Source: Burkholderiales bacterium (lineage in GTDB: Bacteria; Pseudomonadota; Gammaproteobacteria; Burkholderiales; Casimicrobiaceae). From it: a DNA stretch of 64,000 bases. Under the pieces are notes generated by a model, which saw only the letters and a program-made list of their open reading frames with translations, ran no database searches and was not told the origin of the DNA. Of this stretch, positions 53,217 through 56,950 are shown in pieces. Every line of letters begins with the position of its first letter. Within the stretch, counting starts at the first letter, position 1. Made by a program: the position numbers and the translations under genes. Location: contig JADYZP010000009.1 of assembly GCA_020853025.1 (NCBI GenBank), forward strand, positions 150,410 through 214,409, read 5' to 3'.

Positions 53217-53358
53217 CCGGCGAGCACGGCAGGTCGACCTGCTCGCAGTTCTGAAATTCTGTACACTGCGCCGATGGCCGTGGCGCAACTCAAGTTCCGC
53301 ACGCAACACGCGCAGGCGCTCGCCCGGGCGAGAGACACCTTGAACCATTGACCCGCGA

Positions 53359-54111
53359 ATGGCCGCCGAAAACGCTCAATCCATAGTCAGCATTCGCGAC
53401 GTTCACAAGTCCTTCGGCAACGCCGAAGTGCTGAAGGGCCTGTCGATGGAGGTGCCCAAGGGCGCGGTCATCTGCATCATCGGTCCTTCCGGTTCCGGCA
53501 AGTCCACGCTCCTGCGCTGCATCAACGGCCTGGTGCCGATCGACTCGGGGAGCATCCGCGTCGGCGATTTCGACGTCCACCTGCTTGCGACCGACCAGCA
53601 GAAGATCGCATTGCGCAAGGAGGTGTCGATGGTATTCCAGCAGTACAACCTCTTTCCGCACAAGACGGCATTGCAGAACGTGATGATGGCGCCGATCCAC
53701 GTGCTGAAGGAGGACAAGGCGGAAGTGCGTACGCGCGCGCTGGCGCTGCTCGACAAGGTGGGGCTCGCCGCCAAGGCGGACGCGTACCCCGGCGAGCTGT
53801 CGGGTGGGCAGCAGCAGCGCGTGGCGATCGCGCGGTCGCTGGCGATGCGGCCGGAGGTGATGCTCTTCGACGAGATCACCGCCGCGCTCGACCCGGAAAC
53901 GGTGAAGGAAGTGCTGAACACGATCCGGCAGCTCGCCGGGGACGGCATGACCTGCATGCTGGTCACGCACGAGATGCGCTTCGCCCGCGAACTCGCGCAC
54001 GAGGTCTACTTCACCGATGGCGGCCTGATCGTCGAATCGGGGCCGCCGGCCGATGTTTTCGACCGGCCGCAGAAGGAGCGGACGCGCGCGTTTCTGTCGC
54101 AGATTCTCTAG
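53359..54111 (+). CDS. Polar amino acid ABC transporter ATP-binding protein (GlnQ-like)
   Basis: IGPSGSGKSTLLRCINGL, VFQQYNLFPHKTALQNVM, LSGGQQQRVAIARSLAMRPEVMLFDEITAALDPE; no permease or binding protein beside it. Confidence 0.93.
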   Translation: MAAENAQSIVSIRDVHKSFGNAEVLKGLSMEVPKGAVICIIGPSGSGKSTLLRCINGLVPIDSGSIRVGDFDVHLLATDQQKIALRKEVSMVFQQYNLFPHKTALQNVMMAPIHVLKEDKAEVRTRALALLDKVGLAAKADAYPGELSGGQQQRVAIARSLAMRPEVMLFDEITAALDPETVKEVLNTIRQLAGDGMTCMLVTHEMRFARELAHEVYFTDGGLIVESGPPADVFDRPQKERTRAFLSQIL

Positions 54112-54133: not shown

Positions 54134-55819
54134 ATGCGCTATTCGGTCTTCTCGCTCGCCCGCCAGGCGCTGTCCCGGCACCGCCACTGGCCGCTCGCCT
54201 GGCGTAGCCCGGCCCCGAAAAAGCACTATGACGCGGTGATCGTCGGCGGCGGCATCGCGGGACTCGCGGCTGCGCGCGCGGCGGCGAGCGCCGGCGCGCG
54301 CGTCGTCGTCTGCGACGAAAATCCGCATTGGGGAGGTGAAACACCCGGTGACGACCCGCAGATCGACGGCATCGACGCCGTCTCGTGGATCTCCGCCACC
54401 GCCTTGGAGTTGGCGCAGTCCGCCGATGTGACGCTGCTGCCGCGCACGACGGCCTTCGGCGTCTACGACGGCATGCTGGTCGGCGCCGTCGAGCGTGTCG
54501 CCGATCACCTGCCCGAACCCGCGCCGCATGCGCCGCGGCAGCGGCTGTGGAAGATCCGGGCCAAGGCCGTGGTGCTGGCCAGCGGCGCGCACGAGCGCAG
54601 CATCGCCTACGGCAACAACGACCTGCCGGGAACGCTGCTCGCCGGCGCCGCGCGTACCTACGTCCGGCGCTACGGCGTAGGTCCGGGAAGGCGGGCGGTG
54701 GTGTTCGCCAACCACGACGGCGCCTACGCCGACGCGCTGGCGCTGCACGCAGCGGGAATCGTCGTCGCCGCGGTGATCGACGTGCGCGCGAATGCGCAAT
54801 TGCAGCAGGGCTTGCCGGCGCGCGTGCGTGCCGCGGGCGTCTCGATACACGCAGGCTCGATGGTCGTCCGTGCGCATGGCCGCAGGCACGTGGCGGCCGT
54901 CGACGTAGTGCAGCAATCCGGCGGCGCGCCGCAGCGCATCGACTGCGACCTGGTCTGTGTGTCGGGTGGATGGAACCCTGCAGTGCATCTATTTTCTCAG
55001 GCACGCGGCAGCCTGCGTTTCGACGAGTCGCTGGCGGCGTTCGTTCCGGCGTCGTCACCGATGCCGATTTATCCGGCCGGCGCCGCGAACGGCCGTTTCG
55101 ATCTCGCCGACGCGCTGGCCGACGGTCACGCCGCGGGTGCGCGTGCTGCGGCGAATGGGGGCGCCGATCCGGCAGTCACGACGAGCGCACCGCGCGCCTC
55201 GGTGCAATCGGTAGCCCCGCTACAGCCGCTGTGGGCAGTCGCGACCGACACGCGCGGCGCCAAGCGCTTCGTCGACCTGCAAAACGACGTCACCGCCGAC
55301 GACGTGGCGCTCGCCGCGCGCGAAGGCTACCAGGCGGTCGAGCACCTGAAGCGCTATACGACGCTCGGCATGGGCACCGACCAGGGTAAGACCAGCAACG
55401 TGATCGGCCTGGCGCTGATGGCCGAGCAGCTGGGCGTAGCGATTCCCCGCGTCGGCACGACGACGTTTCGGCCGCCGTACACGCCGGTCACGCTGGGCGC
55501 GTTTCCCGGCGCCGACTGCAGCCCGCAGGTGGCGCCGACGCGCCGTTCGGCGATGCACGCGTGGCACGCCGCCCACGGCGCGCGCTTCGTCAACGCGGGT
55601 TTGTGGAAGCGGCCGCACTCGTATCCGCGCGACGGCGAGTCCGAGGACGACGCGGCGATGCGCGAGGCGCGCTCGATTGCGCTGGCGCTGCTCGAGCGCG
55701 GCCGCGCCAGGCACGGCGAGGAATTGTGGGCGGTATCGCCGCTGGCCGGCGCGCGCGTACGTGTCCGTATCGGTCCGCCGTGCTTCATCGATCCCGAAGG
55801 GGAGCGCCTGCGTGTCTGA
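54134..55819 (+). CDS. Chimeric/deleted sarcosine oxidase: SoxB N-terminus fused to the SoxA FAD/NAD domain, SoxA folate domain missing
   Basis: MRYSVFSLARQALSRHRHWPLAWRSPAPKKHYD (SoxB-type N-term) joined to VIVGGGIAGLAAARAAASAGARVVVCDE...VERVADHLPEPAPHAPRQRLWKIRAKAVVLASGAHER (SoxA); ends ALALLERGRARHGEELW..PCFIDPEGERLRV (SoxA C-term). Confidence 0.8.
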   Translation: MRYSVFSLARQALSRHRHWPLAWRSPAPKKHYDAVIVGGGIAGLAAARAAASAGARVVVCDENPHWGGETPGDDPQIDGIDAVSWISATALELAQSADVTLLPRTTAFGVYDGMLVGAVERVADHLPEPAPHAPRQRLWKIRAKAVVLASGAHERSIAYGNNDLPGTLLAGAARTYVRRYGVGPGRRAVVFANHDGAYADALALHAAGIVVAAVIDVRANAQLQQGLPARVRAAGVSIHAGSMVVRAHGRRHVAAVDVVQQSGGAPQRIDCDLVCVSGGWNPAVHLFSQARGSLRFDESLAAFVPASSPMPIYPAGAANGRFDLADALADGHAAGARAAANGGADPAVTTSAPRASVQSVAPLQPLWAVATDTRGAKRFVDLQNDVTADDVALAAREGYQAVEHLKRYTTLGMGTDQGKTSNVIGLALMAEQLGVAIPRVGTTTFRPPYTPVTLGAFPGADCSPQVAPTRRSAMHAWHAAHGARFVNAGLWKRPHSYPRDGESEDDAAMREARSIALALLERGRARHGEELWAVSPLAGARVRVRIGPPCFIDPEGERLRV

Positions 55820-56441
55820 GCGCGGCAACGGCGAATTGGGGTCGATGGTCCCCGGGCATTACGGCGCGCCGGGGACCGGTGTCGTGCTGTCGGTGGCGAC
55901 GATCAGCGCCGCGTGGAACCTGCACGGCGACCCAGAACGCACACCCGTCGTCGCCGACGCCGCGCGGCTCTTCGGCATCGCACTCCCGCGCGAAGCCAAC
56001 ACGACGTCGCGCAGCGATGCGCTGATCGCGTTCTGGCTCGGCCCACGGTCATGGCTGCTGGTCGAAACGACACCCGCGGCGGATGCCGCAGCGCTCGCCG
56101 ATTTCGACGCGCGGCGCGACGCGCTCAATGCCGTTGGCGGGGCGCTGTTCGACGTTTTGGCGAGCCGCATCGCGTACGTGCTGCGCGGTGCACGTGCCAC
56201 GGCCGTACTCGAGCACGGCTGCCCGCTCGATCTGCATGCACGCGCATTCGCTCCTGGAACCTGCGCACAAAGCGTTTTCGGCCACGTGAGCGCGCTCTAC
56301 TATCGGCACGACGATGCGCTGGCGTTCACCGTGATGGTTGCACGCAGCCTGGCTGCCGGCGTCTGGCACGCGCTCTGCGCCGCGGCGGCCGAAGACGGCT
56401 ACGAGGTGGCGCCGCCGTCGGCTGCCTGGACCGGACGCTGA
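55812..56441 (+). CDS. soxG: Sarcosine oxidase gamma subunit-like protein
   Basis: LGPRSWLLVET, FDVLASRIAYVLRGARATAVLEHGCPLDLHARAFAPGTCAQSVFGHV; GTG start overlapping the upstream gene. Confidence 0.8.
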   Translation: MSERGNGELGSMVPGHYGAPGTGVVLSVATISAAWNLHGDPERTPVVADAARLFGIALPREANTTSRSDALIAFWLGPRSWLLVETTPAADAAALADFDARRDALNAVGGALFDVLASRIAYVLRGARATAVLEHGCPLDLHARAFAPGTCAQSVFGHVSALYYRHDDALAFTVMVARSLAAGVWHALCAAAAEDGYEVAPPSAAWTGR

Positions 56442-56442
56442 A

Positions 56443-56950
56443 CATGCAAACTCGAATCACGCAGTTGCTCGAACGACACGGCGTGACCTACCGGCTGCTG
56501 CCGCACAGCGAGCCCGTGTTCACCGTCGAAGCCGCCGCCGCGCAGCGCGGCGTCGTCGCCGGCGAAATGGTGAAGTCGATCCTGCTGCGCGAGAAATCCG
56601 GCGCCAGCCGATTCGTCATGGCTTGTGTGCTTGGGCACCACGCACTCGACGCGAAGGCGGTGCGCAGCTACCTGGGCGACGATGGATGGCGGCGGCTGAC
56701 TTTTGCGTCGGCCGCCGAGATCACCACGGTGACCGGATGCGTCCAGGGTGCGGTAGCGCCGCTGTGCTTGCCTGATAGTGTGCCGGTCGTCTTCGACTCC
56801 GCCATTGCCGGCTGCCGCATGGTCAACATCAGCAGCGGCGACCCGCTGGCCGGAATCGAACTGTATCCGCAGGACCTGATCCGCCTGGCCGGTGCACGGC
56901 TGGCGGCGATCGCCGCGAAGGACTTGCCGCCTGTCGGAATCGGTACCTGA
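56443..56950 (+). CDS. YbaK/prolyl-tRNA deacylase-like protein
   Basis: LLERHGVTYRLLPHSEPVFTVEAAAAQRGVVAGEMVKSILLR..TGCVQGAVAPLCLP. Confidence 0.88.

Follow-up and report, generated by a model that had tools for sequence, protein, structure and literature searches.

A Single Reading Frame Composed of SoxB and SoxA Sequences

The locus described here raised the question of whether a reading frame carrying pieces of two different sarcosine oxidase subunits was the relict of a lost operon, a fault of the assembly or a new protein. In the window, i.e., the whole stretch of 64,000 nucleotides that was analyzed, positions 54134–55819 (+ strand) were translated as one stop-free reading frame of 561 aa. 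It began with the N-terminus of SoxB, continued with the Rossmann motif and the A3 domain of SoxA and about 55 residues including the start of GcvT, and ended with the last ~47 residues of SoxA.

In profile searches, positions 1–60 of the NCBIfam SoxB profile TIGR01373 aligned with residues 2–59 of the fusion, and positions 167–652 (of 996) of the SoxA profile TIGR01372 aligned with residues 30–514, with a total of 612.7 bits, below the cut-off of 1164. The two matches overlapped in the Rossmann motif. In the PDB search, residues 31–515 aligned with residues 127–619 of 1vrq_A and residues 512–558 with 917–961, the latter match being weak when taken alone. The Pfam domains found were Pyr_redox_2 (the NAD/FAD domain, residues 32–290) and SO_alpha_A3 (residues 377–457), together with just positions 1–41 of the 255 of GCV_T, on residues 474–514 and slightly below the cut-off. 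Since an intact relative (locus L032) additionally has Fer2_4, full GCV_T and GCV_T_C, the fusion lacks the N-terminal ferredoxin-like domain of SoxA and most of GcvT; by profiles and Pfam it was not a full-length SoxA (~1000 aa, with Fer2_4, NAD-binding, A3, and GcvT).

On the + strand, the SoxB N-terminus (residues 1 to ~36, recognized by TIGR01373 and by relatives' SoxB) spans 54134–54241. The NAD/FAD (A2) and A3 domains of SoxA (residues ~37–457), delimited by Pfam, conserved columns and the structure model, follow at 54242–55504, and the first ~55 residues past A3, which take in the beginning of the GcvT-like folate domain, at 55505–55669. The extreme C-terminus of SoxA (~47 residues, 70–85% identical to the C-termini of close relatives) occupies 55676–55819. 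Judged from the sequences, chance similarity can be ruled out, because relatives have counterparts of all these pieces in one operon, where they follow one another in the same order and mostly lie beside the same ABC ATPase.

The Intact Locus of Relatives and the Two Joins

An intact soxBDAG locus was present in relatives of the same family. Where enough flank was available, the usual order was permease, permease, ABC ATPase, soxB (417 aa), soxD, soxA (~1050 aa), and soxG, the exceptions being L029, where the ABC genes are divergent, and L128, where no ATPase of the polar-amino-acid type lies beside sox. The window keeps this order in its ATPase (79–85% identical), SoxB N-terminus (67–85%, over SoxB residues 1–33), SoxA core (57–69%, close relatives) and SoxG (45–61%). 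Twenty-two genomes of the genus were compared, and about a dozen of them have other SoxA copies. The CBS gene upstream and the tRNA_edit gene downstream did not adjoin sox genes in the stretches fetched from relatives.

The initial annotation had proposed a SoxB–SoxA fusion produced by two internal deletions, the first of them joined within a Rossmann glycine motif common to both genes, with the frame kept. Profiles, PDB matches and codon-level comparison with relatives bore this out. Join 1, where the glycine motif of soxB passes into that of soxA, was located at 54239–54253 (+), i.e., residues 36–40 (IVGGG), inside the GGG motif shared by the two genes. The SoxB part, first placed at residues 1–33, could be extended to about residue 36, the sequence being SoxB-like through YDAVI and SoxA-like starting at IAGLAAAR. 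Approximately 1.95 kb (1.94–2.05 kb) are missing at this join in comparison with relatives, corresponding to the rest of soxB, soxD and the Fer2_4 domain of SoxA, as had been annotated; the domain is found in L032 and the reading frame is kept.

The proposed jump from the start of GcvT to the extreme C-terminus of SoxA was likewise found, as join 2, at 55667–55675 (+), inside A512-R513-S514, again by codon-level comparison. In comparison with every relative that could be measured, 900 bp are missing here, comprising the bulk of GcvT and the start of its C-terminal barrel, and the frame is kept. This join falls within the GcvT domain, away from any domain border. The longest words common to both sides of the joins were 6–11 bp (join 1) and 5–6 bp (join 2), lengths read from the relatives since the lost copies of the genome itself cannot be seen; shared words of such length would fit illegitimate recombination or slippage. 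The locus has suffered a third loss, that of the permease genes ahead of the ATPase.

Neighboring Genes and Missing Partners

The fusion is surrounded by genes for CBS, ABC ATPase, SoxG, tRNA_edit and antiporter proteins, and the remaining larger genes of the window have the expected domains. The orphan ATPase of a polar-amino-acid ABC transporter (53359–54111, +) was 79–85% identical to those of L125–L127, L129, L130, and L132. The counterpart ATPase of relatives follows the permease genes and in several of them directly precedes soxB. In the window it stands alone beside the CBS-domain gene; the permease genes of relatives are gone, and no remnant of them was recognized in the window ahead of the ATPase. 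The gap where relatives have these genes holds a 25-codon ORF (MAVAQLKFRTQHAQALARARDTLNH; 53274–53351, +), flanked by the CBS gene and the ATPase and placed right after a TACACT stretch, for which no convincing match was found in the relatives' loci.

Downstream, soxG (55812–56441, +) overlaps the end of the fusion and is intact, in agreement with the initial annotation. This frame of 209 aa lies downstream of the soxA sequence and matched TIGR01375 with E = 7e-23 (81 bits, below the curated cut-off of 144). It is followed by a YbaK-like tRNA_edit gene (56444–56950), of which only distant copies (22–36% identity) were found in the nine other genomes searched, so that, as judged by these matches, it may be a lineage-specific arrival.

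The window's own genome, that of an uncultured bacterium (3.65 Mb in 71 contigs, 93.9% complete), was then the object of searches for the partners of these genes. No match to SoxD was obtained in it, with a query that clearly matched in three relatives; nor was there a SoxB match over the TIGR01373 cut-off, or a second SoxA, anywhere in the genome. The L032 permease used as a query gave nothing in this genome and 6–19 matches in each of four relatives. Moreover, among the 22 genomes of the genus it alone had no polar-amino-acid ABC permease of the HEQRo family that exceeded the family's cut-off, which suggests that the whole transporter class has been lost. Therefore, the ATPase, the fusion and SoxG are all partnerless in this assembly.

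Two other sequences of the same genome are worth recording. Contig C28 encodes (L023, 190–2622) an 810-aa single-chain DAO-FAO_M-GcvT protein of the dimethylglycine/sarcosine dehydrogenase type, which could partly replace the lost enzyme or cover related chemistry. On contig C39 (L024, around 1501–2358) there is a DAO/SoxB-like match of 74 bits with one TGA within the matched frame.

Search for the Same Architecture in Other Genomes

A clade of proteins with the same architecture would have spoken against a fusion by deletion. A search turned up no such clade, and the remaining close homologues are full-length. No fused SoxA was detected in 64 genomes of the family, 399 sampled genomes of the order, or the best 80 loci of the species collection, among matches listed at E ≤ 1e-100 (order search) or 1e-60 (family search), levels at which a chimera that is much more diverged, or shorter, could go undetected. 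A shared ancestral architecture was ruled out by its absence from the other genomes of the genus, the family and the order sample. L032, which had seemed a second chimera by its match to residues 1–515, was found to carry separate SoxB (417-aa) and SoxA (1060-aa) ORFs. The short SoxA frames of G006, G007, G010, G021, and G022 all run off contig ends.

Condition of the Kept SoxA Part

In the SoxA module, residues 30–515, 84 columns reach a conservation of 95% or more across 88 homologues, and none of them was broken in the fusion. Its end branch was average (0.30; median, 0.28), and in sequence identity it stood about as close to its relatives as they stand to one another; no accelerated evolution of the kept part was found. 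The frames of the ATPase, the fusion and SoxG comprise 1,020 codons without any stop, and therefore any decay must be young. With about 2.25% of random changes expected to create a stop, such frames are unlikely (P = 0.03) to have gathered more than ~0.05 neutral changes per site after the loss. Because no conserved column is broken, the branch is average and stops are absent, the kept part was under normal constraint until recently, or is still constrained, or the assembly is wrong.

The last of these alternatives supposes that soxBDAG is really intact and that, by a fault of assembly, binning or amplification, two or three stretches are left out of the contig. The division of the assembly into 71 contigs at 93.9% completeness speaks for such a fault, as do the wholly undegraded appearance of the kept sequence and an architecture unique among all the genomes examined; a third loss on top of two clean skips that keep the frame is also much for one locus. 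However, typical assembly k-mers are longer than the words shared across the joins, which in relatives are no longer than 11 bp (join 1) or 6 bp (join 2). Furthermore, soxD, the body of SoxB and the permease leave no trace elsewhere in the assembly, a local misjoin would not explain why the HEQRo permease is absent from the whole genome, and elsewhere in the window the larger genes have the domains expected of them. Taken together, an artefact seems unlikely, though it deserves to be kept in mind.

Probable Origin of the Fusion

The ORF is probably a relict, left behind by recent deletions when a sarcosine-utilization locus was lost. An ancestral locus with the order ABC permease/ATPase-soxB-soxD-soxA-soxG would have lost its permease genes; the ~1.95 kb from soxB into soxA would have disappeared, with recombination at short words common to both glycine-motif regions as the probable cause, and the 900 bp would have been lost within soxA. 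Both sox deletions would have been in frame by chance, leaving a single long ORF, whose product, if translated, would consist of a SoxB leader, the NAD/FAD-binding and A3 unit and then two GcvT stubs.

In sarcosine oxidase, the amine is oxidized at the FAD of SoxB, the electrons are handed on to an FMN that SoxB binds covalently at its interface with SoxA, and folate, in SoxA's GcvT domain, accepts the one-carbon unit. Because the SoxB FAD, covalent FMN and folate sites are gone, the fusion product should not, on the basis of its sequence, oxidize sarcosine. We infer that the deletions are genomic and not a fault of assembly, that they are recent, and that the fusion product is non-functional.

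Several results favor the relict: the operons of relatives are intact, SoxD, a SoxB over the cut-off, another SoxA and the permease are all missing from the genome, join 2 lies inside a domain, the architecture is unique among the 64 family and 399 order genomes, and the single-chain DAO-FAO_M-GcvT protein of contig C28 could take care of related chemistry. Against it, three separate losses accumulated although the decay must be young, neither sox deletion disturbs the frame, which chance would give in 1 of 9 cases, and no conserved SoxA column is broken. The initial annotation had left the choice between a dead gene and a minimized FAD/NAD amine dehydrogenase. The first is the better branch, strengthened by the missing permeases, which that annotation had not seen; the second found no support, given that SoxB breaks off after ~36 residues and GcvT after ~55.

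Should the deletions prove real, this would be an operon early in decay, in which a gene fusion arose within a motif common to two neighboring genes of related fold. The loss of sarcosine oxidase would then be tied to a genome-wide lack of polar-amino-acid ABC permeases in one species of the genus. There is also a warning for annotation, as the product would be called sarcosine oxidase alpha though the enzyme cannot be made.

Structure Model and Comparison With Known Enzymes

An AlphaFold2 model of the fusion was built from 36 sequences (mean pLDDT 81.9). Residues 31 to ~340 were confident, and pLDDT was below 50 for residues 1–29, 458–465, 515–518, and 550–561, although the low score of residues 1–29 is weak evidence, the alignment having been made without SoxB rows. 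The GcvT stubs had low to middling confidence. According to the model, the NAD/FAD core would probably fold and the two stubs may fail to do so. The best fold matches were SoxA (1vrq_A and 2gag_A), followed by the L-proline dehydrogenase 1y56_A (E 8.5e-22, TM 0.55/0.64, 22% identity).

This second match bears on whether the fusion could be a functional new protein, in which a minimized SoxA-type NAD/FAD domain plus A3 would act in electron transfer or nucleotide binding in the manner of an alpha subunit and might be partnered by SoxG or by a DAO-family protein encoded elsewhere. The kept part matches the core of the alpha subunits of opine, hydroxyproline and L-proline dehydrogenases, and the in-frame joins, the lack of stops, the intact conserved columns and the average branch length speak for such a protein. 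Nevertheless, the amine-oxidizing beta subunit is lost, the GcvT stubs are modeled with low to middling confidence, no other species examined has kept the protein, its five cysteines (at 60, 271, 275, 462, and 550) are scattered and form no iron-sulfur motif, and the adjoining ATPase lacks its permeases. This reading is accordingly held to be improbable. A selected new subunit, i.e., a SoxA core that has lost the ferredoxin-like and folate domains, gained a SoxB leader and become an NAD/FAD protein that works, like an alpha subunit, beside a new partner, is very improbable.

A free-standing amine dehydrogenase is also unlikely, because a linked beta subunit and a cysteine cluster are both absent, and the amine-oxidizing and folate-binding parts are gone. 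The alpha subunit of opine dehydrogenase carries a [2Fe-2S]-binding motif, and the opine and hydroxyproline dehydrogenases pair this subunit with a DAO-type beta subunit and contain FAD, FMN and iron-sulfur centers (PMC4575208). The genes neighboring the fusion include none for a linked DAO-type beta subunit.

The fusion defines no new system, and it can be placed beside four known ones. Like the alpha subunits of the opine, D-hydroxyproline, and L-proline dehydrogenases (OdhA; 1y56_A), it has a Rossmann FAD/NAD domain and an A3-like C-terminal domain without GcvT; unlike the fusion, those subunits work with a DAO-type beta. The single-chain DAO-FAO_M-GcvT proteins of the dimethylglycine/sarcosine dehydrogenase type carry out related chemistry and have their 810-aa member on another contig of this genome, whereas the fusion lacks both the DAO body and a complete GcvT. 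With the SoxB beta subunit (2gag_B; TIGR01373) it shares its first ~36 residues, but not the catalytic FAD domain or the covalent FMN site. Finally, it differs from the SoxA of the heterotetrameric enzyme, TSOX (1vrq_A, 2gag_A; TIGR01372), in lacking Fer2_4 and ~300 residues of the GcvT folate domain, in starting with 36 SoxB residues and in belonging to a genome without SoxB or SoxD, while its residues 30–515 align with that subunit over the NAD-binding and A3 domains, its identity is 43% to the solved structures in the fold match and 59–69% to close relatives in the family, and it is likewise positioned before soxG.
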